DNA from: Antedon mediterranea
Lineage: Eukaryota > Echinodermata > Crinoidea > Comatulida > Antedonidae
Reading direction: 5' to 3'
Assembly: GCF_964355755.1 (NCBI RefSeq)
Contig: NC_092670.1
Span: forward strand, 18,723,201-18,787,200
DNA: 64,000 nucleotides
The notes beneath the pieces were generated by a model that worked only from the letters and a program-made list of their open reading frames with translations, had not been told where the DNA came from and made no database searches. The position numbers and the translations under genes are program-made. Positions 19,101 through 59,476 of the stretch are shown one piece after another (within the stretch, counting starts at the first letter, position 1; each line of letters begins with the position of its first letter).

Positions 19101-22100
19101 AACTGGGAGACCTCCACTAATGAGGTAAGGGTCTGTCGCCGTTCCTGCACACAAGATATGCTGCATGGTTTTATCATCTGCTGTATTTTATGTTTTATTG
19201 CCTGGCATGTCATATGATTTTACGCTTCCACTGTTGTGAGATTTTAAGTTGATTTATTCTTTATTTTGGATTCATGTAAAATATGATTTTGCACATCTTT
19301 TCATTGAAATTCTAACTCTGATTGCTTAACATCGTGATGCGTTTATTACTATCTCGTTTATTATAAAGATCATACTATAGTACTGTTTATTATTATTTTT
19401 AATTCAATCACTAAACAGTTCAGAAGTGAAGTGAAGTCGTTATTTATTGTTGTGGTAAAATCTTCCACTTGTTCTCCATCTTCCTTTTTTTTTATGTATA
19501 CAGACATTGTCACTATTATTTATTTGCTATATCAAAGTACAGTATATACTTTTTATATTTTCAGTTAAGTTTCTGTAACTGTAAATCTGTCAGTAAATGT
19601 AATTAATGTTTTTTTTTGGTATTGGGTATGTGAATTGAAGTTAAGTTGCCAGTGCATGAAATACAGCATGGCTGTATCAATAGCATGATAATATATTAAC
19701 TCAATGAAGAAGAATAATATTATTAATAGTACAATACTAGTTTGTTCGCCTGTATAAATCAAGTTTTATTAAATTTATTCTTTGAATAATTAGTAGAGAG
19801 CAGTTTTATACAGGGTAATGCTAATAACGAACTAGGTGGTTCTAATAGGCTGGGTAGAAAACCTTTAATAACACTAACGTTGTAAAAGAAATTTGAGCTA
19901 GGTAACCCTGTAACTACAGTTATTTTTGTACTTTTAAAATATTATATTTATACTAAAGTGCAAATATTTGTGTTTGTTTAAATGGTTTATGTTGTTTAAC
20001 AGAGCATGAACTGTATTATATACATATATACATTATTTTGTATGCATTGTATTGTATTAAGTTGTTCTTATGTATTTGTTAATTTTTCCAACTGAGGTAA
20101 GTATAAAATTTAATTACTCAATTTCATTTATTATGATTGATTAATATGTGATTGAAAGCATGTTGTTAATATAATAATAATTATGAGATTAATATTTTGC
20201 AAAACAGATCCTGAACTAAATTATGTTAAAAAGATTATTATTTTGAAGGAAAATATGGTTAATTTTGTGTGTTGACAAATGTGCATATATAGTAAATGTT
20301 TTTACGTATACTTTTATAATTATATGTTTTTTGTAAATTTATTCAAATTATTAGGCACCTTTAGAAGGAGAACTAGTAGCACAACAGAAATTCCACAGAG
20401 ATCTGTTGGAGGAACAGACGACTCAGTATCAAAAAGAACTTGAAGAACTAAAAAATAAACGAGAAAAAGAACTGGAAGAAGAGGCTCAAGCAACAGCTAA
20501 AGGTTTAATTTCAAATGTATTCATGTTACAGTCCACTCCCCCAATACTAGACATCTTTGGGCTGGCCTAATATGTTTTCTGGAAAGACTGGTATTCGGGA
20601 TGTGTTTCTAATGGTAAAAATTAATTTGGGACCTTTTTTGACCTAAAAAAAGGGAGGAGTTTCCGGTTTGTTTTTTTTTACCTGTAACTCTATTCACCAG
20701 TAGCTAGCTTTTACAAGAATGATGAACGTAACATCAACCAAGTGCAGTCCCAATTAATAGGTGTAATGGTGTACTACTGGGCTTATACATTCTGTATAAA
20801 TTACTGTTTTCTTCTGTCTGCTGCCCCCCAAAAAAGTGGCTGATGTTGAGTTGTTACTGAGATCTTTGTATAAGTATCTTATTATCACTTCATTTTATAA
20901 TCATTATTTTTGTTTTGTTTTTCAGCAATATCGGCTTTGAAACGAGTGCACAATGAAGAGCTTCAGCGAGAGAGAATGAGTGTCAGCGAGATGATGTCTG
21001 ATGATGTGGAAGGAGTAATGAAACGACATAGGTCAGTAATTTAAACCATTAAACTAATTCCTACAAGGTTGATTACTTGGAAATTTGAAGGCACTTCTAT
21101 TGGGAAAGAGATTTATTATAATAAACAAAATTTTTAAAAACATCATGCACTGTCCTTTTCTGTGTGAAATTAATAAATTATAAAAGTTGCTAAACTGTCT
21201 TTAGTGAAAATTGAACTTACAGTATATGATTAATATAAGTTAATATTACTTGACATTATTTGAAACCTTTTAAACTAACATTTAACTTCTTGGTAAATTA
21301 GATATTATCGCTCATCGTGTACAATAGTACTTCAGTCAGGTTAGTCAAGTGACAACATGTTTTTATCGAGTATTATTGGTTATCTAGCTTATTAAACATC
21401 TTGGTATAGAAAAATCGATACTACTTTTGAACAAAATATTTGGCTTAGAATTATCGTATAACAATGTCTAAGTATTTTGTTTAAAAATCAGTTTTTCTGC
21501 TACGGTGCACACTTCTGTATGTATATCTCTCACCATGTGTTGTAAGTTGTAGTTTCAATATTATAAGGTTTTTGTTTTATCATGTGATGTAAATATTGGA
21601 TCATTGTTTATTTTAAATCATATACTATAAAAAAATTGAGATTACATTGTTTTTATAGAAAGTATTTAATGTTTATATTTCCATGTGCACATTTTTTTTT
21701 ACATTATGTTTTATTTATTCTGTTGTACAATGGTGTTTTCATTTGATTGATTATAAAATTGCTTTACAATACATCATATTTTAAAAACATTTGAAAACAT
21801 ATTACAGAAGAAGCTACAGAAATAGACAAATAGTTGCATGATTATTGTGATTGATAGCTACATAATGTGAAAATCAAAAATGATATCGAATTCCTCAAAA
21901 AAATATGTTTATGAAAAAAAATTGAAGATTTTTTTTTGTTATTTCAGGGAAGTAGTTAACCGGATGGAGAAGGAATGGCGAATCCTTTCTGAGAAATATT
22001 CATCACAGTGTCGTGAAAATGTGAATCTGCAAAGAACAGTGAAGACCTTAAAACAAACGATGGAAGAACTACAAAGAAAGAAAGAAGAGATTGTCCAACA

Positions 22101-30019: not shown

Positions 30020-33000
30020 ATGGACTTTCTAACAGTGGTTGTGATTTACGTAATCGTCTTTTCTTTATGTTCATACATACTTACGTCAGCTGACAGTAAA
30101 ACACCGGGAATTATTGGTAATACACGTCGTCAGTTGATTTGGGTAAGAAGTTTGCATGTCTATGCGTTTGTGTATGGAAATAAAAGGCCAACACTATATT
30201 ACTAATGACAGTCACTTAAGTGATTTATACTTAATACAGTATAAGTCAATAAATATTTAAGAATGTATTTAAAATTTTAATGGTTTTTCTCTAAGGCTCT
30301 GTTTACACTATCAAATTTAATGTGACAAAAAAATGTGATGTGGTCATGGACATGATGATGTCATATCATTACTATATTTGGGTACATTTTTTTTTTTTGT
30401 CAAACTAGTTTGATAGTATAGACAGAACTTTAGCCTATGTATGAATTTAAAATATGGCCTCAGTACTCTACCTACACTCTACACACTGGAGTTGGATAGC
30501 CGAGTGGTTAGGACACATGACTGTCATACAGATAGAACCCGGGTTCAATTCCTGAAAAATCCCAGTCCACTCAGCTGTAAATGAGTACCAAGTTGAAAAT
30601 ACTAGGGAGAAAAAAGGCGGCGTGGAAAGGAACTGGCCACCCTACCACATAATGCCGAGGCTTAGTACAATGAGCTCCTAACAGCTCATTCCCCTATGTT
30701 CAGAATGAACACGGGACTCACCTTTACCTTTATTCTACACTCTTGCAGCAATCCCACACTTAAATTGTTTATCCAAAAAATAGGATGGAGTATTATAGAA
30801 TTTATTATTCTTTACTCCATGAAAAATAAATAGAGATTTACATAAAGTTTAATAGCCTACTTATACAATTATATAATGTGATTTTACTTTTTTTAGTTAT
30901 TTGAGGGATTGTACTATTACTTGTTGCCAGCCAAACTTCGAACTACATTACAAAATGTTATTCATCATATTTTTGATGAAAGGTGAGGTACTATATATGC
31001 TGCACATTTACTCGCAACCCGTTTTTAATGAAAGGTCAAGTATCAAGGCTTTAAAAAAATGACTAAATTAAAAGGGTCTTTGGTCGTAGTCTATTTAGTG
31101 GATTGGAAGGCAATTGTTAACCTACTTTTATAATTGTCTGCTTACTGCCTATATTTGTGGATGCATTACAAGGATTATTACTCACACAACTCCAGTTCCT
31201 AAGCCTCAAATGAGACTTAAAGCTCTATCTACACTATCATACTTTATTATGTGACATAACTTATTTTGACTTCCATCTGCAGATGTGTGATGTTTTTATG
31301 TTTATTGTAATTTTTAAGAAGTGTAATTTGTAATTTTTTATATATTTTTTTTAATGTGCAGAAAAACCAATAAAACAAACAAACAAACAAACAAAAAATG
31401 TGATGTACCCATATACAGTACAGTATGGACATGATGAAGTCATATCACTACCATATTTGGGCACATCACACTTGTTGTCAACCTAGTTTGATAATGTAGA
31501 CAGTGCTTTTAGTTTATAAGCACCATAGTTTATCCATCATGTATTGATGAGTAACTTTATTTTGGATGAAAAATTGATTATCACATGATTTGAACCCAGA
31601 AGTCTGAGATTCAAACGTAATAATTCTCTCCACACCACACCTGGGTTTGCACAAATAATTACTACTTACACAGAATATACCACAAATTGATTTTAAACAT
31701 TTTAAAATGATTAATTTTATATTATTTTCAGAAATTGTTACTTACAAGTAACTTACTGCTTGATTGTAGGAGTCTGCTTTTGGATTCTCACAGTGCAAAT
31801 AATTCCAAATGCTACAGCTTACTGCAATTCTACCTTGTCCACGTATGCTCCATTTGTAGAGTTGCTAACGAATCTGTACTTTTTCATTTCAACTTCGCTA
31901 AAAGATTCTGGTACTCTATCATCCAAAAACATTGATACGTTTATGAACCGTTACCCATATGATGGTCAACTGTATGTTAAAGGAGTCAATTGTAGAACGT
32001 GCTTATTTCAGAAGCCAGCAAGGTCAAAACATTGTAGTGAGTTTAAATTGTTACCATTATAAGAGTATAATTATGATCGGTGGTGTCCAAGGGTCACCCA
32101 AAGTACCGCACCCAGCCTAAAGATTTTTGTAAGATCTTCCACCCACCCTAATCTTAACAAAATATCCACTCGCCATAACTTTTTGTAACTGAGAGTGCTG
32201 TTTTTCTTTTCATCTACTTTTTCTCTCTACTCCAAGATGGAACTATCCCTACTCCCTTTTATCCTACAGGGTACTTAACACTTGTAACCCACAGGTATAT
32301 ACTTTGAATAAATAACTTGTCTGTTTTACATTGTTAGGCATATGCAATCACTGTGTAGTGAGATTTGACCATCACTGCTCCTGGGTAAACAACTGCATTG
32401 GTGCTTTTAACATCAAGCATTTCATTGGCTACCTGTTTACAATAGCATTAATGTGTGTGCACGTGGCTGTGCTCGGAGTATATGCATTGCTAAATATTGT
32501 TTATTCCACTGGACTTCATATGGCGCAGTATGTGGATAGTGACGGCAAACTCAGACCAATGAATTTTAGAGTATTAATTCAGGTTGGTGAGACATACAAT
32601 GATGAATACCTTAACCCACATCCATACAAAAATCAATTCATGTATATGAATATTTATATGTAAATCAATGAATGTGTTGCGTAGCACTGTGTAAATTATA
32701 TATAAATCATACTGTTAAATTATTGAACCATTGAAACAGTGCTCATATTCGGAACATGATCTCATAATCGCGTCGAGCATAGCTCATTGGCGAAAGTTCC
32801 GTATTTTTTTAATTCTATGAAAAAATGTCTCTGGCGGGATTCGAACCTGCAACCTCTCGCTTACAGGGCGAGTATCATACCACTAGACCACAGAGCCATA
32901 TATGGTATTATCATGGAGATTTTCACCCACCAGATACATTCTCTCATACAACAAACGCCCTCACAATCACTGGAGGCCTAACAAGTCAGAATAAATTCCA

Positions 33001-33611
33001 ACTTTAATACCATATATGGCTCTGTGGTCTAGTGGTATGATACTCGCCCTGTAAGCGAGAGGTTGCAGGTTCGAATCCCGCCAGAGACATTTTTTCATAG
33101 AATTAAAAAAATACGGAACTTTCGCCAATGAGCTATGCTCGACGCGATTATGAGATCATGTTCCGAATATGAGCACTGTTTCAATGGTTCAATAATTTGA
33201 CAGTATGAATTATGAATATTTATATATATATATCACTATGTTTTGTGATTACATTGTTTTCAGCATTTATTTATGGAGTACCCACTTGTGGTTTTCCTCA
33301 CGACTGCGTTAGGACTTCTTTCATTTCTAATTGGTGGATTTACAACCTACCATCTGTACCTTGCTCTCACCAACCAGACAACAAACGAGAGATACAAGAA
33401 AGCGGCTTTAAAATCTGCAAAAAACATTGCTACGGATGAACACATACACAGAACAAACAACAAGAGAAAGACAAGACATTCCAAAAACAAGATAAAATGT
33501 GCAGTACCACAGTACATGCTAACCATAGAGGGAGCCAGTCAGTTTTATGATCATGGACTCTCCAGCAATTTGAAAGAAATCTTATTTCCATGTAAAGAAA
33601 AGAGTCTGTGA
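30020..33611 (+). CDS. ZDHHC4: Palmitoyltransferase ZDHHC4-like (DHHC S-acyltransferase)
   Basis: Five exons, 30020-30142, 30897-30982, 31732-32036, 32338-32582 and 33264-33611 (TGA), join with consistent phases into 368 residues; human ZDHHC4 is about 344. It transfers palmitate from acyl-CoA to cysteines of membrane-associated proteins in ER/Golgi-type membranes. The start MDFLTVVV resembles ZDHHC4, and a good acceptor at 30010-30011 implies a 5' UTR exon. Visible features: hydrophobic segment 1 (about 3-21), [16 protein letters not shown], the cysteine-rich domain ([22 protein letters not shown], then [20 protein letters not shown] with DHHC at 182-185), two later membrane segments, and TNQTTNERY containing the TTxE motif. 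The catalytic DHHC and the zinc cysteines are intact. The usual DPG/NPG motif is degenerate (KDSG). The C-terminus [11 protein letters not shown] matches the ZDHHC4 tail (S-NLQEIF-P), which separates it from other DHHC enzymes. Confidence 0.93.
30295..30434. mobile_element. MITE family 1 copy (GCTCTGTCTACACTATCAAA termini)
   Basis: AAGGCTCTGTTTACACTATC at the left and GATAGTATAGACAGAACTTT at the right are imperfect terminal inverted repeats of a 140-bp element with a central GACATGATGATGTCATATCA palindrome. Related copies in this window are at 31217, 38453, 51138 (partial), 56771 and 60091. It lies in ZDHHC4 intron 1 and has no coding capacity. Confidence 0.8.
30488..30732 (+). mobile_element. 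tRNA-derived SINE with CACCTTTACCTTT tail
   Basis: A pol III A-box-like TAGCCGAGTGG (30497-30507) and B-box-like GGGTTCAATTCC (30541-30552) form a tRNA-like head. The body contains GGCGTGGAAAGGAACTGGCC, CACATAATGCC and AATGAGCTCCTAACAGCTCA, and it ends in ACCTTT repeats. This layout is that of a widespread tRNA-SINE of deuterostomes and other marine animals. It sits in ZDHHC4 intron 1 on the sense strand. Confidence 0.75.
31217..31512. mobile_element. MITE family 1 copy split by a retroposed insert
   Basis: The left terminus TAAAGCTCTATCTACACTATCATAC and the right terminus AGTTTGATAATGTAGACAGTGC bracket the family-1 internal sequence, but about 140 bp of foreign sequence (31256-31397) interrupt it. 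The insert ends in an (AAAC)n run, GTGCAGAAAAACCAATAAAA and then repeated CAAA, as expected of a retroposed 3' tail. It is in ZDHHC4 intron 2. Confidence 0.7.
32826..32897 (-). tRNA. tRNA-like head of the left SINE (probably not a functional tRNA)
   Basis: This is an exact mirror copy of the cloverleaf at 33018-33089. It has the same anticodon-position TGT and the same stem mismatches. It is best treated as the pol III promoter head of a retroposon. Confidence 0.45.
33018..33089 (+). tRNA. tRNA-like head of the right SINE, anticodon position TGT (probably not functional)
   Basis: It folds as acceptor GGCTCTG/CAGAGAC (one G-A mismatch), D arm GTCTAGTGGTATGAT, anticodon stem CTCGC/GCGAG with the seven-base loop CCTGTAA, variable AGGTT, and T arm GCAGG-TTCGAAT-CCCGC (one A-C mismatch). 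The D arm and anticodon stem resemble tRNA-Pro genes of animals, but the anticodon position TGT would read threonine. The almost invariant T33 is C. These defects and the mobile body downstream argue for a SINE head. A and B box promoters are intact. Confidence 0.5.
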
Positions 33612-34180: not shown

Positions 34181-36985
34181 TTTTCTATTTTATTTCATAA
34201 CTTGTTACTATATCATAATTTGACATGTACAGACACACCTAATGTGTTCTGTGCATAATACTTGAAAAGCTGATATTACTGTAAAAAGGTCGAAATTTTG
34301 CCATTTTATGAAAAAATCCCTGTACTAAATTATTATTACTTTTTACCATAACTGGTTACTATATCATAATTAACATGCGCAGAGCCGAATAATGTGTCCT
34401 GCGCATGTTAATTGTGCTATAGTAACCAATTATATCGAAAATAAAAATGGCCAATTTTCGACCCTTTTAGTTTTTGCCATAACTGGGTACTATAGCACAA
34501 TTAACATGCGCAAGCATGCCAATTGTGCTATAGTAACCAGTTATATCGAAAATAAAAATAGCCAATTTTCGACCCTTTTATTTCTTGCCATAACTGGATA
34601 CTATATCATAATTAACATGCGCAGAATCAAACCATTTGTTTTGCGCATGCCAATGTTTATTATACTATAGTAACCATTTATGTCAAAACTGGTTACTATT
34701 GCATAATAAACATGCGCATGCAGAGGCGAATGATGGGTTCTGCGCATGTCAAATTGTGCTAGTATGGTAACCAGTTTTGACATAAATGGTTACTATAGCA
34801 TAATAAACATGTGCAGAGGCGAATAATGGGTTCTGCGCATGTCAATTGTGCTATGGTAACCAGTTTTGACATAAATGGTTACTATAGCATAATAAACATG
34901 CGCAGAGGCGAATAATGGGTTCTGCGCATATCAATTGTGCTATAGTAACCAGTTTTATCGAAAAATAAAAGAGTCGAAAATTGGCCATTTTTTTGAAGAA
35001 AAAAAAAATTGCGAAAATGGCCGATTTTCGACCCTTTTATTTTTTGACATAAATGGTTAATATCGCATAATAAACATGCGCAGAGGCGAATAATGGGTTC
35101 TCCGCATGTCAATTGTGCTATGGTAACCAGTTTTGACATAAATGGTTACTATCACATAATAAATATGCGCAGAGGCGAATAATGGGCTCTGCGCATGTCA
35201 ATTGTGCTATGGTAACCAGTTTTGACATAAATGGTTACTATAGTATAATAAACATGCGCAGACGAATAATGGGTTCTGCGCATATCAATTGTGCTATAGT
35301 AACCAGTTTTATCGAAAAATAAAAAGGTCGAAAATTGGCCATATTTTTGAAAAATCCCTGTACTGTAGTACAGGGAAATTTGCAAAAAATTGCCGATTTT
35401 CGACCCTTTTATTTTTTGACATAAATGGTTGCTATAGCATAATAAACATGCGCAGAGTCGAATAATGTGTTCTGCGCATGTCAATTGTGCTATAGTAACC
35501 AGTTTTTACATAAATGGTTACTATAGTATAATAAACATGCGCAGAGGCAAATAATGGGTTCTGCGCATGTCAATTGTGCTATGGTAACCAGTTTTGACAT
35601 AAATGATTACTATAGTATAATAAACATGCGCAGAGGCAAATAATGGGTTCTGCGCATGTCAATTGTGCTATAGTAATTGGCCATTTTTTTTTTTTAAATC
35701 CCTGTACTATAGTACAGGGAAATCTGCGAAAATGTCCGATTTTCGACCCTTTTATTTTTTGACATAAATGGTTACTATCACATAATAAACATACGCAGAG
35801 GCAAATAATGGGTTCTGCGCATGTCAATTGTGCTATAGTAATTGGCCATTTTTTTTTTTTAAATCCCTGTACTATAGTACAGGGAAATCTGCGAAAATGT
35901 CCGATTTTCGACCCTTTTATTTTTTGACATAAATGGTTACTATCACATAATAAACATACGCAGAGGCAAATAATGGGTTCTGCGCATGTCAATTGTGCTA
36001 TAGTAATTGGCCATTTTTTTTTAAAAAATCCCTGTACTATAGTACAGGGAAATCTGCGAAAATGTCCGATTTTCGACCCTTTTATTTTTTGACATAAATG
36101 GTTACTATCACATAATAAACATACGCAGAGGCAAATAATGGGTTCTGCGCATGTCAATTGTGCTATGGTAACCAGTTTTGACATAAATTGTTACATAGTA
36201 TAATAAACATGCGCAGAGACGAATAATGGGTTCTGCGCATGTCAATTGTGCTATAGTAACCAGTTTTATCGAAAAATAAAAAGGTCAAAAATTTACCATT
36301 TTTTTGAAAAAATGCCTGTACTTGTACAGGGAAATTTGCGAAAAATGGCCGATTTTCGACCCTTTTATTTTTTTACATAAATGGTTACTATGGCATAATA
36401 AACAAGCGCAGAGGCGAATAATGGGTTCTGCGCATGTCAATTGTGCTATGGTAACCAGTTTTGACATAAATGGTTACTATCGCATAATAAACATGCGCAG
36501 AGGCGAATAATGGGTTCCGCGCATGTCAATTGTGCTATGGTAACCAGTTTTGACATAAATGGTTACTATCACATAAAAAACATGCGCAGAGACGAGTAAT
36601 GGGTTCTGCGCATGTCAATTGTGCTATATTAACCAGTTTTGACATAAATGGTTACTATAGTATAATAAACATGCGCAGAGACGAATAATGGGTTCTGCGC
36701 ATGTCAATTGTGCTATGGTAACATGATAACAACTGAATCGAATAATGTGTTTTACGCATGTTATATAGTAACCAGTTATAAATAGGTCGAAAATTGGAAA
36801 TTTTAGGAAATTATGTGTTCCACGCATGTTCCGTTAATATATATTTTGAAAAACCGATATTTTGACATTTTTCCCAAATTTTCCAGTACGCAGACGTTTT
36901 GCGCATGTTACCTCAATATACATTTTGAAAAGCCGATATTTTGGTCATTTAAAAAAAATCCCTGTACTATGTTTTGCTGTCAAAA

Positions 36986-38715: not shown

Positions 38716-41700
38716 TTATAATATTGAATATATGTCGTGATCTTTGTCGTCTTGATTGGTTTTTGCTAAGTTTTGCAAGGATATCCTCAATAAACGGGCA
38801 ATCGCAGCAATCTGAAAAAACATTATGAGGAAATTAATATTGTTGGATCCGAAATTAATTAATGAAAAATTATGAAGACCGCCAAACGGTATCGGTATCA
38901 GTGTCGTTTGATCCATCACTAATATTAGAATTAAAAACAACACCACAATAAACAACTATACCATACTATACTATAATACTATACTATAAAATCGATTATT
39001 AATTTGTTTGTGTGTGATACTGCATCAGTTAATAATCAACGGAGATGAGTTTTCAGGAAAAAAATGATTTTGATATATTTAAAGATGTATTGTCCACCAA
39101 AAACATAAAAAATGAAGATTAATTAAAGACGACTTTGTATAGGTTATTTTGTAAATTAAATTAATCACTTTTGTAAAAAAAAGGAAAAAAAATGTTTTCA
39201 CTTATAAAATGACAAAATAAATAGTTAAATTCAATCAAAAACCCACATGGCTGGCAGCCAATATTTTTTGGCTTTTAAATTACAGTTTCTTCAGGTAAAT
39301 ATATTACAATAACATTATCTAATAAAATATGAATTTGTGTAATTTTACTAGATAGCTTTTATTGAACCAAAATATCATTAGCAAAAAATCAACATCTTTT
39401 TCTGGCATGTAACATCTCATAACTATAAGCTATCAAAATATTGTTCTCATATATTCTCAATAAAATAAATATAATATTTATTGAGTTACGAATAATAATA
39501 GGTTTGAGATATGAAATGATGGCCATTTTGGACGCAGTAAATTTGCAACGGTACACCTGAATTATTTTTCTTAAGGGTGTAGGCTAACAAAAACAACTTG
39601 GTGTGCCAAGGTGTGTAGAGAGGTGGCAATGGGCGTTCTCTAAACAAGTACTTGGATCTCCTTTTATAACTATTTGTGCATATTTTATGCTAGCTCACAA
39701 AGACTTTTCTATAGGCAAACAACATCAGTTTCATTTAAGCACTGCTTAATCTTGACTTAAGAAAACAGAAAAACTGCTGGTATAAGCATGAAATTACTTA
39801 GGGGTTCAAGAATAAATACATTAGTACGTGTTCCTTTCTTTTAAAAATTATATTGTAAACCTGAAAAAATTAATTTTTTCTAATTTTTGTTGTTGTATAT
39901 GCCATTTTAAATTTCCATAATAGTTATTCACTTTGACCAAAAATTGGATTTGAAAAAATTATTTACCTGAAAAACTGTAATTTAAAGCACAAAATAGTCA
40001 AATTTGCCGCAAGCCAATGAGTTTTTGTTTGAAATTATTAACTGTTTGTTTTGTCTTTTTGTAAGTGAAAACTTTTTTTATCCTGCAGAAATTATTAACT
40101 TTATTAAAACTACAAATAGCATATTCAAAATCAGATTTTATAAATCTTCATTTTTCATGTTTTTGGGAAACAATACATTTTAAAGTAAAGTTTGCTTTTA
40201 CCTCGCCTGAGATTTTATCTTTCTCTCTTTTATTCTCTGTCGCGACATACATTTCTTTCCTTTTTGTAGCTGTTTTTTCACTACTAAGAATTTTAATACA
40301 TTCCGAACGGCAAAATTTTTTGCTGTACTTCCTTAACTTACATTCTCTAAAGCAATGTTGTCCTGAAGTGACTGGTGAAAAAAGAAACAAATTTAATTAT
40401 ACATTCATTATTAGGCTTTAACTTTATATAAAACTTATTTTAACGTATTTAAAAAATAGTAAGTAATTACAAAAAATAAAGATTCATTGTTTATAATATA
40501 AGATCACATTCATATATAAATAAATCACTACAAAACGACGAACAAAACATAGACGGGAAAACATTCTGAAATTAAGATTTCAAAAATATGAAAAGAAAAA
40601 AATAATGTACCAAAATTAATAACAGCAACAAGACTGAGCATGGAGGAAAGTATCCTTATAATATTCATATACAGGTTGTTGTAACAACAGGTGAATATTA
40701 TAAAAACACACAACGAAATTCTGCTTTGCAATATTATGTCTTTTCGACGAATAAGCAAAGAACAAGTAGAACTATCATCATTTGTCACGCATATTTTCTG
40801 ATTTTAATTATAATCTGTTAAGACGTTTGACGATTAATTAATATTTACTATAGCCATAAATAACAACAATTCACGTACAGTACATAAAGCTTTCAAGAAA
40901 GCCATGCAGTCTAAATAGGACGCCGTGGAATTACAACAGTATAGCATTTGCCATTAAACAAAAGGTATATAAGCATTAAATAGTCCCTTGGAAATTTTCA
41001 ACCAGAATTTTATCTGAATTAAATGAAAAACATTACATACATAAAGTGGTATAATGGTAGGATATCTAACATACAAAGTAGAAGATTCCGAGTTCGATTC
41101 TCGCTTTAGTTAATGTAACGCTTGGCGCTCGTTTAATAACTAAGAGTCATGTTCAGTATTATTATTATTTTTAAAATAAAATGTTAACATTTCTTATACA
41201 CATAAAAATACAAATATTACAAAAGAGTTATTAACTAAATCCACTCATGTCCCCCATTTCCGTTATTTGGCTCGGGCGGGCAATCAAACAACTCTAAAGA
41301 ATTGACCATGAGAAGCGCCAACGTAACGTTTATGAATGATTAAAATGATTTAAAAAATGCTTGAATAACATCATTATTTTCAATATCAATTTTCTGTACC
41401 GTATTATAGAGAATATGGTCAAATAATATATACAATATTATAACAATCTTTCATCTCATGAAATTATTTTTACCATCTGCACTCGTAAACATTGCGTACT
41501 AGTTAAACACACATATAATGTTGTTATAGCCTATATTCAGAATTATTTACCATGATCTTGTCAAATTCATCGTAAATAATGTGTCGAAGTTATAGAAGCC
41601 ATGCTTACGCTCGACATGCGACCATGCAATATAAACACAAAAACAAACAATAATGATGTATTCGTACTAAAACTTGAAAAACGCTGTAGAATATCACAAG

Positions 41701-42116
41701 CAATTTGCCCCTTTGGGCCACTATTTGTAATAGATTTTTGATAGAATAAATAAAGTGAATAATAATTTTTAACAATAGAATAATTCGACAAAACTGATTA
41801 TCAGATCAGTGGTAATATACAATCTACTATTTTACACATTTAATTAATTTATACATTTATTAAATTCTTATAGCTTCTTACAGTTTGTCATGTGAACAGT
41901 TATTGATTATATACAAATGCAAAGTTCAACCTTACTAATTGATTAACAGATTCTAAACTATCTATTTCGACATCAATGTTATTCCAAAGACTTTTCTTTT
42001 TCACGAGTTCTTAATAAAATTAGAAACAGTTTCCTAACGAAATAAAATCACTCACCCTGACAGCATGCTAACAGAAAAATTAGCAACAGACAAATAACAA
42101 AAGCAGACGCCATCAT
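38716..42116 (-). CDS. Putative secreted cysteine-rich peptide precursor A (105 aa)
   Basis: I do not recognise this gene. Three exons read on the minus strand, 42116-42056, 40362-40202 and 38811-38716 (TAA), join with phases 1 and 0 and good borders (CAGG/GTGAGT, TTCAG/GA, GAG/GTAAAA, TTTTTTCAG/ATT). The product starts with a signal peptide (MMASAFVICLLLIFLLACCQ). A basic segment follows with four cysteines spaced C-x3-C-x9-C-x3-C (residues 24, 28, 38, 42), a dibasic TKRK, a Lys/Glu-rich stretch, and a C-terminal amphipathic helix (IAAIARLLRISLQ) with an acidic end. C-x3-C...C-x3-C is the spacing of disulfide-stapled helical hairpins, used by several antimicrobial and signalling peptides; that fold is an inference. 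A further exon inside the 1.39-kb second intron cannot be excluded. A TATA-like element lies about 65 bp upstream of the ATG. Confidence 0.6.
39077..39260. repeat. Dispersed repeat copy 2 (AAAGATGTATTGTCC family)
   Basis: It shares AAAGATGTATTGTCC, TTTTCACTTATAA and AGTTAAATTCAA in order with 33985-34180. It lies in the second intron of peptide gene A. Confidence 0.6.
41045..41170 (+). mobile_element. Possible tRNA-headed SINE fragment with ATT tail
   Basis: GTGGTATAATGGTAGGATAT resembles a pol III A box and GAGTTCGATTCTC a B box with a perfect T arm, but the anticodon stem is poor. An (ATT)n run follows at about 41158-41170. It looks like a degenerate SINE head rather than a tRNA gene and lies in the first intron of peptide gene A. 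Confidence 0.35.
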
Positions 42117-44400: not shown

Positions 44401-46615
44401 ATATATATATATAATATATATGAGTATTACTAACACTTGCACTGATGAATGTGTTGCCCCAAAGTTCTGCTAATTTTTCTGGCTCTTTACATTATCGTTT
44501 TGATTTAACATTTTGCTTTTTTATTTTGTATCTCCATTGACTTCCAGCCATACCCGTTTTTCAGTTTCTTTTCGAATTATAATAGTAGTCCTACTGTTAT
44601 AAACACTCTAGAATTATACATTCTAGTCTGGACCTTTTTACATACTTCTAGAATGGAATTTTATGTTTTTCTGTAATGAATTGATATCCACTTTTGAAAG
44701 TGTTAGGTAAAAGACAGATATTAGTAGCCTAATGTGTATAATGGTTGGTTGGCGCCCTCTCTTTCGAGTGGTTGTAATACTTTTTATATCAGAATACGTA
44801 TAACCACCATTAGCGAAATATACAAAAGTCGAATGATGCCGATATGTCGAATGTGAAGGAGGACCTCATCAGCCGAATTCGAGATGATACTATACAAGTT
44901 TTTATTTAGACAAAATAACGACTATAAATGTATCTAGTGTATATAAATGTATCTGCATAAAATGGAGGTATAAAATAAGTACGGTGTTTTATACCTCCTC
45001 CATGGTAATACACAGCGTTACACACATGTCACATGTGGTATCAATAAACAACCATACCAATATCATAATGATACGTGTGTAGATATAGTTCCAAGAAACG
45101 GGTGTGAGTGTGATAAACATATTCGAGTACACGCGGGCCACAGTGCGGTGTTCGATATATTAAAGTTTAATAACAATTTTGATAGATAATTCATTAGATT
45201 TATAGGCCCATTCATAATTTGTTATTGAATTTTATAGATGATTATAAATACCAGATATATATTATATAAATAGAGATTCGTTTTAGAATATTTACATAGA
45301 GCTCAATCACGTCTTTTCATCCACTTGAATACTCTGAAACAAAATATTTGCCCTTTGATTGAAAATAATTAAAACATTTCATAGAAATTCTGATTGATTA
45401 TCAAATTCGCTTACGAATATATGTTATTTGATCTGAGTGGTATATTTACGTTACCGGTGGAATTTTCTGCCTAATACTATTTACAATATTTTATTTTTAT
45501 TAATAAAGTGTACGGAATGTAATTTAGTTAGAAATACATCACGATGCGTTCAAATAGACCAGCAATTCGAAATTAATAGTGACGTCCTACGCCGGAAGAA
45601 AACACGTATGTGAATGATTGTTTATTAAAAATCATGTAAGAAGAAAAAGTCGTCAATAAATGATTGCCGTAGTAAACTTCAAGTGATATACCAATTAAGA
45701 ATAAACCACAATTAGTTTGAACCAATAATACATTAATGAATATTATAACCACAACCTTCTTATACAATTTAAATATTAACATAGGCCACAAACTGTCTTT
45801 CCTTGTTTGATATGTCAATTTCACTCTAAACTATTTATTTTGTCAGTGTTGGCGCACCATATCACAAACTATTTTGAATTTATTTGCGTGGTGCGTGGTG
45901 TGAAGAACCGGCATTGTTTCTGCTTTTTTTCTATTTATTTAATATAATTTCATTAGTATTGTAAAGGGGTGCTGGGGGCGGAGGAGCCGGCGGGGGATTA
46001 TTCGTTTTGCTCACGTCCGTTAGGCCCACTAACTATGCTAATCGAACCTGGATGATAAGCTACCGTAAAATCTCGAAAAGATTGTTGATTGTTGAGATAA
46101 TTAAAAAAGTATTGATACCGTACGATGCCACTATCTTACATTTCTATTCCTTTGACATTAAAAAATCAGTCCATCTAAAAAATAAGTCCATCTCGAAAAG
46201 AACCTACGTTTTACGATATTAAAATAACTTAGCATCGTAATCACGAGACATAATTACTGTTAACTTTATATTTCCGTTCATATTTATATTATTGATATAG
46301 TCAATATACCGGTGACGATCGATCAATAACTACTAGACCTACAACGCACACAGCCATATCCCCCAACAATTATATTCCGGCAAACAATACCTTTAGTGTT
46401 CAAATAGTCATGCTTTTTATAAAAGAAAAAAAGACCATAACAACCACTTTATTAATTAGTATAGGTAATGAGTTATGTTACAAAGAACAACGAAATATAA
46501 TTACTATTTGTACAACGACGCATGTGTCTCGTTTCCCGCCTCCTCGCCAAAGTGAAATCTCTCAAGCACTAAAATAAAATAAAAACCGGCGCATCCGGCG
46601 CTACACGGAACGTTG

Positions 46616-46628
46616 ATTGGATAAAATA
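46616..46628 (+). promoter_or_regulatory. Possible promoter elements of peptide gene B
   Basis: An inverted CCAAT box (ATTGG) runs directly into ATAAAATA about 145 bases before the ATG. The sequence just left is unusually CpG-rich (CCGGCGCATCCGGCGC). Suggestive only. Confidence 0.25.
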
Positions 46629-46769
46629 GCATTAAAAGTTCTGATCAAACAATTGAGTTAATATATGTTTTGATATAAGAGAAGTCAACGATATATTCGA
46701 TGCACTTGCTGAGTACGGTAGTAACTCAGATATTTTTCTTTCGTGGATATCGTGTAATTTTCTTGTGAG

Positions 46770-49700
46770 ATGTTTAAAGATTTATACATAGTCGTTGCCT
46801 TATTCGCTATCTTACCGTTAATAGCAATAGCAGAATCAAAATCAAGTAAGTTATTACTTAAGTTATTACTTACTTTATTCAAAGTTTTTACATAAGCTGC
46901 TAGGGGCCTATTAATTTACGATGCACGCCGAGCGCACAAACGCGTAATAGTTGGTCTAATGGAAACGGGACCTTGAATTTAATTTATTACGATTTGTTCA
47001 AAGCTCCCATTCAGTTATCTATTGAAAGTATAGTTGTATGTACATCTCTGAGGATGGAAGACCTGGTTGTCACGCAAGTGCGAATGAGGGACACAGTATC
47101 AACATATTTTGTAGGCTCCTATTTTAAAAGTGTAGGCCCACCCTAGGATATGCCTAAAGTCATCTTTGGAATTATGTATTTGCTATTCTATACACTAGAT
47201 CTATATAAATCAATTGGCTGGGATAAGCTCAAAGCTTTTAACACAAGTTACATGATCCATGCAGCATTATATTACGATACGAGTAAAGTATCACTATTTT
47301 GTAGAAATCATAACGGATAATGATGGACAATTACCAAATGGTTGAGTAAAATATAAGTAGATATTCTATAGGGTATCTTCTACCAGGATACAATAACCAC
47401 ATATTTGTGGTTATTGTTTTAGAGTGGGTTGAGTCCCTTAGTGAAGAAAACAGAACAGGAGGCACACTGAACCAATAAATTACACAATTTTGGGAATACA
47501 CAATTATCACAATTTTATTTGTAATTTAAAATTTCATAAAAATATAGGAATAAATGTCTTATTATCTTTTAATAATAGAAATTAATAAAGGCATAATGCT
47601 TTATTCACCGAACTGTTTACGATCGAACGTCTACCTCACGGTGGTCGGGTTGCCGAACATTACCGAGTCTGGAGAAAAATTATGAAAAATGGGTATAGTG
47701 TAGTAGAATAGAATCCGGCCTCCTCTGTCTGACCGTAGCTTTACTTTATGGTGACATTATACACTGAACTGACATAGGCCTAATTAACCTTTAGTATAAA
47801 CACATGATTGTGTACATAACTTGCTACCTGCCATATTATATTAAAATCAATATAATTTATAATAGACGGTCATAAACACGGCTTATATTGTTGTTCATTT
47901 CTAGGAAAAAAGATGTATGCCAACATTGTCTAATAAGTAAAAAATATTCTTACATTTTGTCTGTAAAGTATAAAATCAATATAATAATATCTATGTAATA
48001 AAATATAATAAATAAACCAAATATAAATATGTAAATTTAGGCTATCGATATTTATTTTCTCTCTTTTAATTTTAACACCACCTTGAATATGAAAGATACA
48101 AAATAAAAATATCTAACAAATAAAATACTAAATGCACAAATTATGCCTAATTATGTAAATAAGCTGTCAACAAACAGCCAATTTTCAACAAAATTTTCAC
48201 CAAAAGTGTGAAATAATTATTCAAATCGAAGCAAAAAATACTGAAAAAAAACCCCAATGCTGCGACAAAATAATAAATACATAATCTCATAAAAATGTAA
48301 AACTTTAAAAGACTCTAAAAATACAGTAATACAGAAAAAATGTAAATTGAGGCAATTAAGGAGTTTGTTTGAAGTTCCGAATTGCAATAACTTACTGATA
48401 AAAGAACACTTATTAGCAAAACTGCCATCGGCCATAATCATCTTGGTAATTTATTGGAAAATAATTGTTGTGCAACGGTAGCCTTAAGCCTCAGGAATTT
48501 ATCTATTATTTTGATATTATCTGTTAGCCATTATTGAAATTGACAGCGAGTTCAAGTGTGTTCACAAGTAATGTTTTGTAAAGTATATTATGTTGAGAAG
48601 AAATAGATTGAAAATTATTTATTAATTAAAGCATTTATTTTGTAACAAATTAGGATTTACCACCGACCACGAATGGGTCGACATCCTCATGTTATGTCAT
48701 TAAACATTATACATCTATTAAGTTAAAGTTTGTGGTGTTAATGAGGAGAATAATTATGGATAACAGGGAAATGGTACCATGAATGACATCCGGGGAATCT
48801 GGATATAATCCATGTGGCACAGGTACCTGAATATCTGGCATGGGTCGCGAGGACGAAGTGCACGGATAAAACGAATATGATGTCGTCATATATTATATAA
48901 AGAAAGTGGGGGAGGGGAGGGTAATAAATGAATAGGCCTATGTGGATGCTCTCCCCAAACGAGAGAGGGATAAAGAGAAATTGCCCACTTTGGTCATAAG
49001 AATAACAAATTCTCTGTGCTTAAAGGAATAGAAAGACAACATGAAGGCAAGAGTTTGATGATAATCTGCTATTAATGATAAATGCCAAGTTATTTGGACT
49101 TCCTCATTAAATTGGAAATTTCGTAAGCTTATTACCTTTAGAATTGAAATTAATGTTTCTTAAAACAAGAACAGAATTCTAATGTGGTGTGTCCCAATTG
49201 ACACGTGTCAACTGCGTGAAATGACGTAATTTGACATGAAAAGCCATTATTCAGCAAAACGAAAGAATCAATATCGTGAACTACATGCTATAGTGATGTG
49301 AAGACAATGAGACTCGTAGAGATTGATGAGGACTGACGGTCAAACCGACATCCCGTCATATAGTTTACATTCTATAGGTTATTTAAAGAAAAGCATTGGT
49401 ACAAAGACCGTTATTATTAGTAAGACGGACAATTAAAACCTTTCATTCATGTCGTACAATGTGATTCGTGATTGATCAGGACTTACGGACGAACCGACAG
49501 TCACAATGTCATAGGCCTAATGCGTCCAGTTCTAACTGTGGTACAAATTAAAGTAAGCTTGTGATTTGTGAAGACATGTCAAATTTACCAAAATAATCAA
49601 TTGCTGTATTCTACTTAGGAGGAGAATTTTACATATTACTTATTCTGACTAAAATAAAACATTCTTTGTCTACATTTATGGTAAAGCCCCGCATCTAAAA

Positions 49701-51733
49701 ACCTCAATAAATTTAATGTTTAACTGAACTTTGTTAACTTTTGCGTTCCTTTCCATTTTTCAATTTACGAGGCGCCTATGTGCCTTCGTTGGACACATTG
49801 ATGGAGCATGTAACCTAGAAATAAACTTGACGTTTCTTCTCAATAGGCTATTAATTCTACGAATTCACATTCTCAGCTCAGTTATCAGTTATGACCCTGT
49901 TCGATCATATCAATCTAAATATTTCGCAGAATTCTTAAAAACTAAAGTGAAGTTGGTAAAGTAATAATAATATGAATGAATGAAACTATGATATATATCT
50001 CTTTCCCATTTACACGACTGCGATAGGTCTATTGTATACATATCTAACAAGGGAAGAACTGTTCTAATGATCGGAGCGTTAGAGTAAAATTTCATAAAAT
50101 TATGCATTCGTTTTAATATTTAGGAACAACAATTTGCCATATTTTTGGGTTTTTTTACTATTAAAATATGTTTAGCATAAGTTTGAGAGAACCAACATAC
50201 GTCATCTTTACTTTATAGGCCCTAGTAATAAATCCTTATTCTCTTTCAGCATGTCAACAAAATTGTGAAGCCAAATTTTCCTGTGCAAATGTATGTTCAA
50301 TGTACTGTGCATGCAGATCTCCGAGGTCGGTGGTTGCCGGTAGATATGGCGGCAAGTCGTTGACGTTGAAAAACGGTAGACAAATACCGTGTTCAGACAT
50401 AAATGGAATGGTATATAGATGTAAACGAGTTACTAAACGGATTTATACTCCTGACGAAGATAGGAATTCATTTATTATGGAATCAGATGTAAGTGTATGA
50501 TTTGAACGTTTTCGACAAATTGCAGAAGTCAAAATATTGACGACGATGATAGCACAAACCCGATTACAAAAACCAAAACAAAGTTATCAATGCCTTTAAA
50601 CCGCGCGATATTGATGACGATGATAGTACAAACGGTATTGATTAGGTTTAAAAATAGGAAACTTTTTGTGATGACAGTAATATATTCTTTTCTTAATATG
50701 CCTAGGCCTACTCAATAGTTGTCAAACAAACATAGCTAGAAATTGAGACTGAAACACATACAATTGTCTAAAACTGGCAACAAGTGCAACTGAAAACAAA
50801 AGAACAACATCTAAAAAATCAAACTTAATAAAGACAATGTAACTCTTTACCTTTGAATCAATGAAATTTTGCCACATGAAATTGAAGTGATAAAATACTA
50901 CTAAATTTCAACTATATACTGGTTTCTGTATAACTTGTTTAACAATACAGAGGGCAAATACTGACACATGGGGACCTTAACCGGACACATAGGCCTATGG
51001 GTACAATTCTAAACGTTTTTTTTGTTGACAGGCTAGTTGGCAAGATTATGATTCAACTGACAACAAACTTAATGAAGAAATGCAATCAACAAGAATGTCG
51101 TTAAAACAGATCATACGCCAGGTAAATGAATACAAAATGCCCATATGGGCATTTTGCTTAAATGCCCATATTATGGACATGATGATGTCATATCACTACC
51201 ATAATTTAAGCATATCACCAGCATATTTGTAATCGGAGGAAAGAATACTTTTTACTCTAGACTAGCTCGTGTGCACTTTAAAGAACTTAGTACATCTTTC
51301 AAGACGAGTAGGGGGTTACCCAGGTGTATTAATACATCTTAGCCACTGATCACCAACTGGGCCCTCTGGGAGATCAGTCTTTATACCCAGTATAAATATA
51401 TATTTCAATTTCAATTTCTAAGCTACGTAGGCCTATCCTATGAAGGTGTGACAGTGTACCAATTCCTTTTTGGTTTCTGCTATCCTAAATACGAAAATTC
51501 ATTTTGCGTCCGATGAGGAAAGGACCACAACTTTCTCGCTATATCCTGTATAAAGCATTGAAAAAACATTAAATGATTAAAAGTTCGTCACTTACCCGCT
51601 GTTTCTAACATAGATGTTATATAGGTTAAATACATTTTGTAAGTAATAATAATTTACACAATTTATTTCCTTTCAGATTCTTCGACAAGAGAGCTACAAC
51701 TTTTACGATTGGAACTCAGAACCGAATTTTTGA
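46770..51733 (+). CDS. Putative secreted cysteine-rich peptide precursor B (153 aa)
   Basis: I do not recognise this gene. Four exons, 46770-46845, 50250-50488, 51032-51121 and 51677-51733 (TGA), join with phases 1, 0, 0 and consensus borders (TCAA/GTAAGT, CTTTCAG, GAT/GTAAGT, GTTGACAG, CAG/GTAAAT, CTTTCAG). A signal peptide (FKDLYIVVALFAILPLIAIA, cut after AIA) precedes eight cysteines: six in a tight cluster C-x3-C-x5-C-x3-C-x3-C-x-C (27-47) and two at 73 and 83. Then comes a KR-V-T-KR site (84-89), a possible prohormone-convertase cut, and an acidic, Asn/Gln-rich tail ending in WNSEPNF. The even number of cysteines, all after the signal peptide, supports a disulfide-bonded secreted protein. 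The spacing is not that of insulin/relaxin, eclosion hormone or neurophysin. It could be a neuropeptide-like, defence or matrix peptide. ATTAAA at 51816-51821 fits as the polyadenylation signal. Confidence 0.68.
46846..50249 (+). other. Long first intron of peptide gene B
   Basis: The 3.4-kb intron separates the signal-peptide exon from the cysteine exon. No additional exon was recognised. It contains two diverged copies of a block with GAGGACTGACGGTCAAACCG / CAGGACTTACGGACGAACCG near 49320 and 49480, and AT-rich sequence. Confidence 0.5.
51134..51155. repeat. 22-bp perfect palindrome beside the exon 3 donor of peptide gene B
   Basis: AAAATGCCCAT and its exact reverse complement meet at 51144/51145, beginning 13 bases after the exon 3 boundary at 51121. 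It leads into a partial MITE family 1 copy. A transcript hairpin here would sit next to the splice donor. Confidence 0.8.
51138..51225. mobile_element. Partial MITE family 1 copy
   Basis: The internal block AATGCCCATATTATGGACAT-GATGATGTCATATCACTACC matches the centre of family 1. Terminal inverted repeats are missing. It lies in the last intron of peptide gene B. Confidence 0.55.
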
Positions 51734-51815
51734 TCGACATTTTGAATTCTATTATTTTTTATTAGTTAAATTAAAATTTATATTTTTTATAAATATAAAT
51801 ATACACGTGTGCAAT

Positions 51816-51821
51816 ATTAAA
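51816..51821 (+). terminator. Candidate polyadenylation signal (ATTAAA) of peptide gene B
   Basis: ATTAAA, the commonest variant signal, lies 83 bases after the stop codon and is followed by a T/G-containing stretch. Confidence 0.35.
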
Positions 51822-52424
51822 GTCTCCATCTTATTAGGAGAAAAAAAATATTAGTAAAAAAATTAAAGATAAACTGCTAAAAGCAAACACTATAGTCAAG
51901 GAGCAGGAACACGTATCTGTTTACGGTGTAATATCTATTTTACTCAGAAAAGTTTGGTTGGTTTCCATCATTTATGAAACAATTAGCTACGAACTTCAAA
52001 GGTGTTCTTAATTTATGTTTATTAGGCATTACTTGATAAAAGAATGTTAACGATGATTTTTTTTAAATTCGATGCCATGGGCAATGTGAAATACTAACTT
52101 TACACAAAAAAGCAATGAGAAGGAAAAAGTAGGGCATCAACAATATTAACAAATTGAAGTAATTATTTTAAAAAAGAGACTTGTGAAAATGTCGACTTAA
52201 CGAGCATTATGGTAGCTGTCTTTCCACAGAAATGTAAATGTGCAATAATGGCCATTATTCCTACACGGTAAAACCACACATGGACCTAGGGAACCAGGGC
52301 AGAGGTAGTTCATCTGGGTTGATTTCAACTATTATGATTATTACAGAATTCATTAACGAAATTATGGTTCGCAGCCTGTACTGGGTATAATCCACTACCG
52401 TATCTATTTAGACTCACTCGACTT

Positions 52425-52670
52425 ACCCGCGGAATATCGTGACGAATGACGTACCTTGGTGTACCCTGAAAATGACGTGTCTTGTCGAACCCTTGGAATA
52501 ACGTAACTTGGCGTACATGGCGATGACGTACCGTGAATGACGTAACTCTCGTGGCACACTTGGAACGACGTACATTGGCAGACACTGGGAATGACGTACA
52601 TAAATATATTGGCAATGACGTACCTGGGTATATCCTAAGAATGACGTACCTTGGCGTACCTGCATGCATA
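52425..52670. repeat. Degenerate tandem repeat with TGACGTA cores
   Basis: About nine units of 24-35 bp, each with a core such as GAATGACGTACCTTGGCGTA. Units vary outside the core. It produces overlapping minus-strand ORFs (MHAGTPRYV..., MYVIPSVCQ...) without coding meaning. Confidence 0.75.
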
Positions 52671-58195: not shown

Positions 58196-58504
58196 TTCAA
58201 TTTTTCGTCATAAAAAAAAAAATTGAATGACCAGTGTGAGCAAAGGGGTAGATAACGTGTAGGTTTGAGGACAATATTGATTTAATAAGGTGTGTTACAC
58301 ATGAATATGATAAATTCAATTATGTGAGACACAATATCAATTAATGATTGTAAAGTGATGACGTAAGACGGTTATAATACGACGAAGATGGCAATTAACT
58401 ATTAAGATCTTAAACATGTATTTTGTACCGACTGTTTCCACATATTTAGCTTTTAAATACGCAGTTACATGTTTAGCGTCTTTGAAAACCTAAACGTGTT
58501 TATA

Positions 58505-59476
58505 GCTACATGTTGTTTTCCTCCACTCGTTTGACAGTCAACATGTCACTATTATGTTCAGTCAACATGTTTAGGTACATGTTGTTTTCCTCCACTCGTT
58601 TAGCAATCAACATGTCACTATTATGTTCAGTCAACGTGTTTAGGTACATGTTGTTTTCCTCCACTCGTTTAGCAATCAACATGTCACTATTATGTTCAGT
58701 CAACATGTTTAGGTACATGTTGTTTTCCTCCACTCGTTTAGCAATCAACATGTCACTATTATGTTCAGTCAACATGTTTAACTACATGTTGTTTTCCTCC
58801 ACTCGTTTAGCAATCAACATGTCACTATTATGTTCAGTCAACGTGTTTAGGTACATGTTGTTTTCCTCCACTCGTTTAGCAATCAACATGTCACTATTAT
58901 GTTCAGTCAACATGTTTAGGTACATGTTGTTTTCCTCCACTCGTTTAGCAATCAACATGTCACTATTATGTTCAGTCAACATGTTTAGCTACATGTTGTT
59001 TTCCTCCACTCGTTTGGCAATCGACATGTCACTATTATGTTCAGTCAACATGTTTAGGTACATGTTGTTTTCCTCCACTCGTTTAGCAATGAACATGTCA
59101 CTATTATGTTCAGTCAACATGTTTAGCTACATGTTGTTTTCCTCCACTCGTTTAGCAATCGACATGTCACTATTATGTTCAGTCAACATGTTTAGCTACA
59201 TGTTGTTTTCCTCCACTCGTTTGGCAATCGACATGTCACTATTATGTTCAGTCAACATGTTTAGCTACATGTTGTTTTCCTCCACTCGTTTAGCAATCGA
59301 CATGTCACTATTATGTTCAGTCAACATGTTTAGCTACATGTTGTTTTCCTCCACTCGTTTAGCAATCGACATGTCACTATTATGTTCAGTCAACATGTTT
59401 AGCTACATGTTGTTTTCCTCCACTCGTTTAGCAATCGACATGTCACTATTATGTTCAGTCAACATGTTTAGGTATG
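58505..59476. repeat. 69-bp minisatellite, 14 copies
   Basis: Each unit contains ACATGTTGTTTTCCTCCACT, CGTTTAGCAATC and CATGTCACTATTATGTTCAG. Copies differ at a few fixed positions (TTAGGTA/TTAGCTA, AATCAAC/AATCGAC, AACATG/AACGTG), and the first and second halves of the array carry different variants. The 69-bp unit is 23 codons, so it stays open for 335 residues on + and shorter stretches on -. The ACATGTT words form repeated short palindromes. Confidence 0.95.

Follow-up and report, generated by a model that had tools for sequence, protein, structure and literature searches.

What does a four-exon, cysteine-rich gene in the crinoid Antedon mediterranea encode, and what might its product do? 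The gene, which we call gene B, lies on the plus strand at 46770..51733 of a stretch of 64,000 nucleotides (assembly GCF_964355755.1, contig NC_092670.1, positions 18,723,201 to 18,787,200), hereafter the window, from whose first letter all positions are counted. A first-pass annotation had described it as the precursor of a secreted eight-cysteine peptide belonging to no recognised family. Our analysis suggests that gene B is very probably a real gene and is probably lineage-restricted. As a whole, we tentatively read it as a lineage-restricted animal prepropeptide gene whose cationic core would be released at a lysine-arginine (KR) site to serve as a host-defence effector.

When the gene model was recomputed, the four exons, their consensus splice sites and all residues agreed with the first-pass annotation. 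Exon 1 (46770..46845) contains the ATG, the signal peptide MFKDLYIVVALFAILPLIAIA followed by ESKS, and a phase-1 donor, GTAAGT. Exon 2 (50250..50488) carries all eight cysteines (C27-C83), the KR-VT-KR site (residues 84-89) and the start of an acidic tail, the middle part of which is encoded by exon 3 (51032..51121) and the end, YNFYDWNSEPNF, by exon 4 (51677..51733), which also supplies the stop. The exons measure 76, 239, 90 and 57 nucleotides and add up to 462 nucleotides, or 153 residues and a stop codon. None of them is interrupted by a stop or a frame break, all borders are GT-AG, and the intron phases of 1, 0 and 0 leave the frame intact, as had been claimed. An in-frame TAA (46755-46757) stands 12 nucleotides ahead of the ATG, and three ATTAAA motifs at 51770, 51816 and 51862 (51770..51867, plus strand), which are 37, 83 and 129 nucleotides past the stop, are candidate polyadenylation signals by motif match.

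The encoded protein has the parts that had been attributed to it. The most hydrophobic 11-mer begins at residue 5 (mean Kyte-Doolittle value 3.08), and past residue 23 the 17-mers peak at 0.76 or less. Signal cleavage is likely to occur after residue 21, because the small-residue pattern AIA precedes E22. The cysteines, at residues 27, 31, 37, 41, 45, 47, 73 and 83, form the array C-x3-C-x5-C-x3-C-x3-C-x-C-x25-C-x9-C, and four of the eight (C27, C31, C41 and C45) have the spacing C-x3-C-xn-C-x3-C. KR occurs at residues 84-85 and 88-89, the first directly after the last cysteine. The net charge is +7 over residues 23-82 and -6 over residues 89-153, and this switch from core to tail argues for the host-defence reading. 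An AlphaFold2 model of residues 27-84, built without relatives, consisted mostly of strands, with a mean predicted local distance difference test score (pLDDT) of 53.

We then compared the gene model with chance expectation. Splice sites were scored with weight matrices of approximate textbook values, not trained on this organism, and the scores are relative. The three donors of gene B, at 3.5-4.6 bits, rank within the best 0.6, 1.4 and 0.8% of the 3645 GT dinucleotides on the plus strand, and its acceptors within the best 0.24, 0.12 and 0.34% of the 3268 AG dinucleotides there. Only three acceptors between 46.77 and 52.0 kb reach at least 6 bits, and gene B uses all three. Apart from exon 1, no plus-strand ATG exon of the window pairs a signal-peptide-like start with a phase-1 donor of at least 3.4 bits. 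Among the plus-strand internal-exon candidates of the window, exon 3 ranks sixth and exon 2 seventh; three of the five ranked higher lie inside a long frame at 14520-19217, and the others are 4131-4220, which we assigned to the same gene as that frame, and 9662-9708, which fits none of the genes assigned. We also simulated 64-kb strands with an order-3 Markov model, scanning a single strand. Phase-compatible internal exons as strong as those of gene B, paired within 2 kb, appeared in 2 of 400 and 9 of 5000 simulated strands. Single exons of that strength with at least six cysteines appeared in 1 of 400 and 22 of 5000, and pairs with a cysteine-rich member in none of 5000. Because gene B uses the sole 6-bit acceptors of that interval, has a unique plus-strand first exon and has no counterpart among the exon pairs of 5000 simulated strands, it is unlikely to be a product of chance. 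These tests back the earlier description of gene B as a secreted eight-cysteine precursor.

The claim that its cysteine pattern matches no family was also borne out in the libraries searched. Against Pfam, NCBIfam and the PDB sequences, gene B returned only two weak, unrelated Pfam rows. No Pfam eclosion-hormone row appeared at E-values up to 10, in a search from which HMMER's filters remove most of the weak rows. With exon 2 as the sole query, viral contigs gave 11 pattern-matching stretches, none of which encoded a relative. The accessible parts of two mollusc surveys (PMC6425005, PMC5996578) contain no eight-cysteine family that fits gene B, and six peptide stretches from gene B and from the neighbouring gene described below were absent from the text of 5.39 million papers, a set that covers a minority of subscription papers and no figures. 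An Rfam search over 46000-52500 returned a SNORD47-like stretch in intron 2 of gene B (E 0.47; 23.9 bits against 50), which we took as chance.

A second gene of similar kind lies nearby on the opposite strand. Gene C has two minus-strand exons: exon 1 (42056..42116) encodes the signal peptide MMASAFVICLLLIFLLACCQ and ends in a phase-1 donor, GTGAGT, and exon 2 (40148..40371) encodes a basic core, VTSGQHC-x3-C-x9-C-x3-C, with KR sites, one later cysteine and the stop. With the first of two ATGs taken as the start, the protein has 94 residues; a CC pair stands at the signal-peptide boundary, and AATAAA follows at 40105-40100 on the minus strand. The start codons of genes B and C are 4.65 kb apart in divergent orientation. 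On the minus strand, two ATG exons combine a signal-peptide-like start with a strong phase-1 donor, one of which is that of gene C. The two strands were then scanned for models in which a signal-peptide exon leads in phase to a strong acceptor, with four or more cysteines inside 70 residues. Genes B and C were the two models returned; simulated windows, also scanned on both strands, gave a mean of 0.05 such models, with at least two of them in 2 of 1000 windows, a null that is post hoc, as the scan was built after both genes were seen and its thresholds were set below their scores. The other of the two minus-strand ATG exons, at 986-881 and 1028-881, has a donor of 7.1 bits; the same scan found no cysteine-rich exon downstream of it.

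In both genes a phase-1 intron separates the signal peptide from the core, and residues 27, 31, 41 and 45 are cysteines in each, giving the spacing C-x3-C-x9-C-x3-C, to which gene B adds C37 in between. Among 50 simulated models, none showed this spacing and 17 had a phase-1 intron. The two genes may share a common descent. The first-pass interpretation stands as regards a secreted precursor without a family match in the libraries searched; it had overlooked gene C and the helical-hairpin-type spacing in gene B.

The core of gene C is predicted to form two helices (pLDDT 84.5), with each of its two CxxxC motifs within one of them, as in a helical hairpin. Plant thionins make up seven of the eight PDB sequence matches of the whole protein and all seven of the trimmed core, the core query having been cut (from the CC to the KR) after the whole-protein thionin rows were seen, which improved the E-values. 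With the Pfam Thionin model, the core scored 14.4 bits (E 0.057), below the cut-off of 23.6; a Defensin-like family, PF24552, ranked above it (E 0.015), also under its own cut-off, and for the whole protein Thionin was fourth of five rows (E 0.16). In alignments with three thionin rows, the observed score was reached by 10, 28 and 29 of 20000 shuffles with cysteines fixed; these figures are too favourable, because the rows are the database's best for gene C. For gene B against the same rows, the score was reached by 9703, 4938 and 5410 of 20000. It is conceivable, though unlikely, that genes B and C arose as divergent duplicates and are the founding members of an undescribed animal family of secreted peptides, whose scaffold would be a helical hairpin (C-x3-C-x9-C-x3-C) of thionin-like or alpha-hairpinin-like type, with an acidic propiece and four more cysteines acquired by gene B.

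How might gene B work? In the host-defence reading, the signal peptide would be removed near residue 21 and four disulfides would form in the core in the endoplasmic reticulum, where the anionic tail (64 residues, exons 2 to 4) may balance the cationic core and aid folding. A convertase cut at KR would then free a peptide of about 62 residues, which would act as an antimicrobial-type effector, the least certain of these steps, and gene C may provide a second, smaller cationic peptide from the same locus. We weakly favour host defence over a hormone, as slightly more likely, because of the precursor layout and the basic neighbour gene C.

Several observations weigh against this reading, some of them against the gene model itself. 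Gene B has no homologue in the libraries searched, and its array differs from the canonical mytilin array. The likeness between genes B and C stops at cysteine spacing: BLASTP gave an E-value of 37, and the observed alignment score was reached by 16026 of 20000 shuffles with cysteines fixed. The thionin matches of gene C are non-significant (E 0.8-2 for the whole protein, 0.08-0.6 when trimmed), and none belongs to gene B. Cysteine clusters are not rare on their own: of 300 simulated windows, 53 had a frame of at least 60 codons in which six cysteines fall inside a stretch of 21 residues, and the real window has two such frames. On the minus strand, the top internal-exon candidate (52676-52427) reaches 13.7, compared with 12.6 and 13.2 for exons 2 and 3, and lies in no gene that we can name; a score alone is therefore no proof of an exon. 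With a codon model whose training set was the long exon nearby (frame 14520-19217), the coding sequence of gene B falls below background, at -25 bits over 153 codons, although by full codon score the coding frame beats the other two in exons 1 to 3, but not in exon 4. In controls, a DHHC-like frame at 33270-33600 scored -8.5 bits over 110 codons and a held-out segment (13246-14100) +64. The test still counts against gene B but is not decisive, because the training frame encodes a coiled coil of particular composition and a negative score was also given to the DHHC-like frame. The missing homologues, the simulated clusters, the minus-strand exon candidate and the codon scores would all fit a model that is wrong or not expressed: either a decayed gene, or a cysteine-rich frame that arose by chance and was joined to splice-like sites with which it has nothing to do. 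We consider this very improbable, given the absence of paired internal exons with a cysteine-rich member from all 5000 simulated strands, exons free of stops and frame breaks, and a full signal peptide, in-phase exons, stop and ATTAAA.

The closest competitor takes gene B to be a neuropeptide or peptide-hormone precursor, in which the core freed at KR would act on a receptor and the acidic part would be a spacer peptide. The clean dibasic KR-VT-KR straight after the last cysteine would be expected of such a precursor too, and echinoderm orphan cysteine-rich candidates of similar size (Arnp18, Ajnp18 and AmedPCNP18) have been described. On the other side, no amidation glycine precedes the KR, the searches of Pfam, NCBIfam and PDB sequences yielded just the two unrelated rows, and the cationic core with its anionic tail fits a defence peptide at least equally. 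We regard a hormone as a real possibility, held with less confidence than host defence. Disulfide-rich secreted peptides of venom, mucus and inhibitor kinds often evolve fast and have no recognisable relatives. Gene B could accordingly be a venom or mucus peptide, a protease inhibitor, or a metal-binding or reproductive protein; helical hairpins with two CxxxC motifs are described in trypsin inhibitors and channel blockers (PMC7191063), and the gene B searches returned nothing specific to any such role, which we judge improbable.

The rest of the window holds other features. A large plus-strand gene at about 4.1-23.2 kb, which we take to resemble MPRIP/outspread by its layout, includes a stretch that may be a PH domain, at a Pfam E-value of 0.2 that falls short of the cut-off, and also the frame at 14520-19217, which encodes a 1565-residue coiled coil with no Pfam row. 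A plus-strand frame at 33249-33608 looks like the final part of a DHHC palmitoyltransferase, again under the Pfam cut-off (E 0.0022). At gathering score, Rfam found two tRNA genes in the whole window, both tRNA-Thr(TGT), at 32825-32898 (minus strand) and 33017-33090 (plus strand), 118 bases apart and with equal Rfam scores. Tandem arrays with a unit of mostly about 89 bases occupy 34403-36722, and at 58503-59471 fourteen 69-base units, 97% matching, lie inside a frame open for 343 codons. The palindrome TAGGCCTA is present in 18 copies, about 33 times the base-composition expectation; a literature search for it gave nothing useful among the matches listed.

Orphan genes for small secreted peptides are common in invertebrate genomes, and as a lone orphan gene B would be of modest interest and ordinary in kind. 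Should it be expressed, gene B would contribute a disulfide framework absent from the libraries searched, and together with gene C it makes a two-gene locus where defence and hormone roles are directly testable. If a thionin-resembling helical-hairpin peptide does exist in an animal, it would suggest convergence on one scaffold.

Among known systems, the ambulacrarian orexin-type peptide AjOX1 is described with six cysteines, a C-x-C pair and dibasic cleavage after it, in the array CC-x5-C-x5-C-x-C-x6-C with a C-terminal glycine (PMC6586643), and the crinoid orexin-type peptide has C-K-C in place of the CC start (PMC9793003). Gene B also has a C-x-C pair and a dibasic site downstream; compared by eye with these descriptions, it lacks the CC-type start array and the amidation glycine. 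Orphan eight- and nine-cysteine precursors have been put forward as neuropeptides in echinoderm and crinoid surveys (PMC4772807, PMC6586643, PMC9793003). The np18 orphans have nine cysteines in Arnp18 and eight in Ajnp18, and include Spnp18 and Ovnp18 (PMC4772807, PMC6586643, PMC5627052, PMC9793003); crinoid AmedPCNP18 has eight cysteines in 60 residues and an amidated product (PMC9793003). Gene B resembles them as a small secreted precursor of this cysteine-rich type without known relatives, and differs, as far as they are described, from the C-terminal core of Arnp18, the LFWVD peptides of Ovnp18 and the amidation of AmedPCNP18.

The helical-hairpin motif with two CxxxC is reported from plant defence peptides, trypsin inhibitors and animal channel blockers, and alpha-hairpinins have two antiparallel helices joined by bonds Cys1-Cys4 and Cys2-Cys3 (PMC7191063). 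Two C-x3-C motifs nine residues apart occur in gene C and, with C37 between them, in gene B; in gene C, as in the thionin rows, a CC pair precedes the first C-x3-C by seven residues. Gene B differs in its four extra cysteines and low-confidence model, and gene C in its non-significant matches and in having its CC at the signal-peptide boundary. The precursors of mytilins, which are antimicrobial peptides of mussels, have four exons and consist of a signal peptide, a cationic eight-cysteine core and an anionic C-terminal extension, with the canonical array C-x3-C-x3-C-x4-C-x11-C-x-C-x-C-x2-C and alternative arrays too (PMC7168163); myticin-C likewise has an anionic C-terminal region (PMC3164099). 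Gene B has no sequence match to mytilins, and its core of about 62 residues and precursor of 153 compare with 32 to 43 and 83 to 106 in the mytilins described (PMC7168163). Although this is no proof of membership, gene B has the same plan of four exons, signal peptide, cationic cysteine-rich core and anionic extension.

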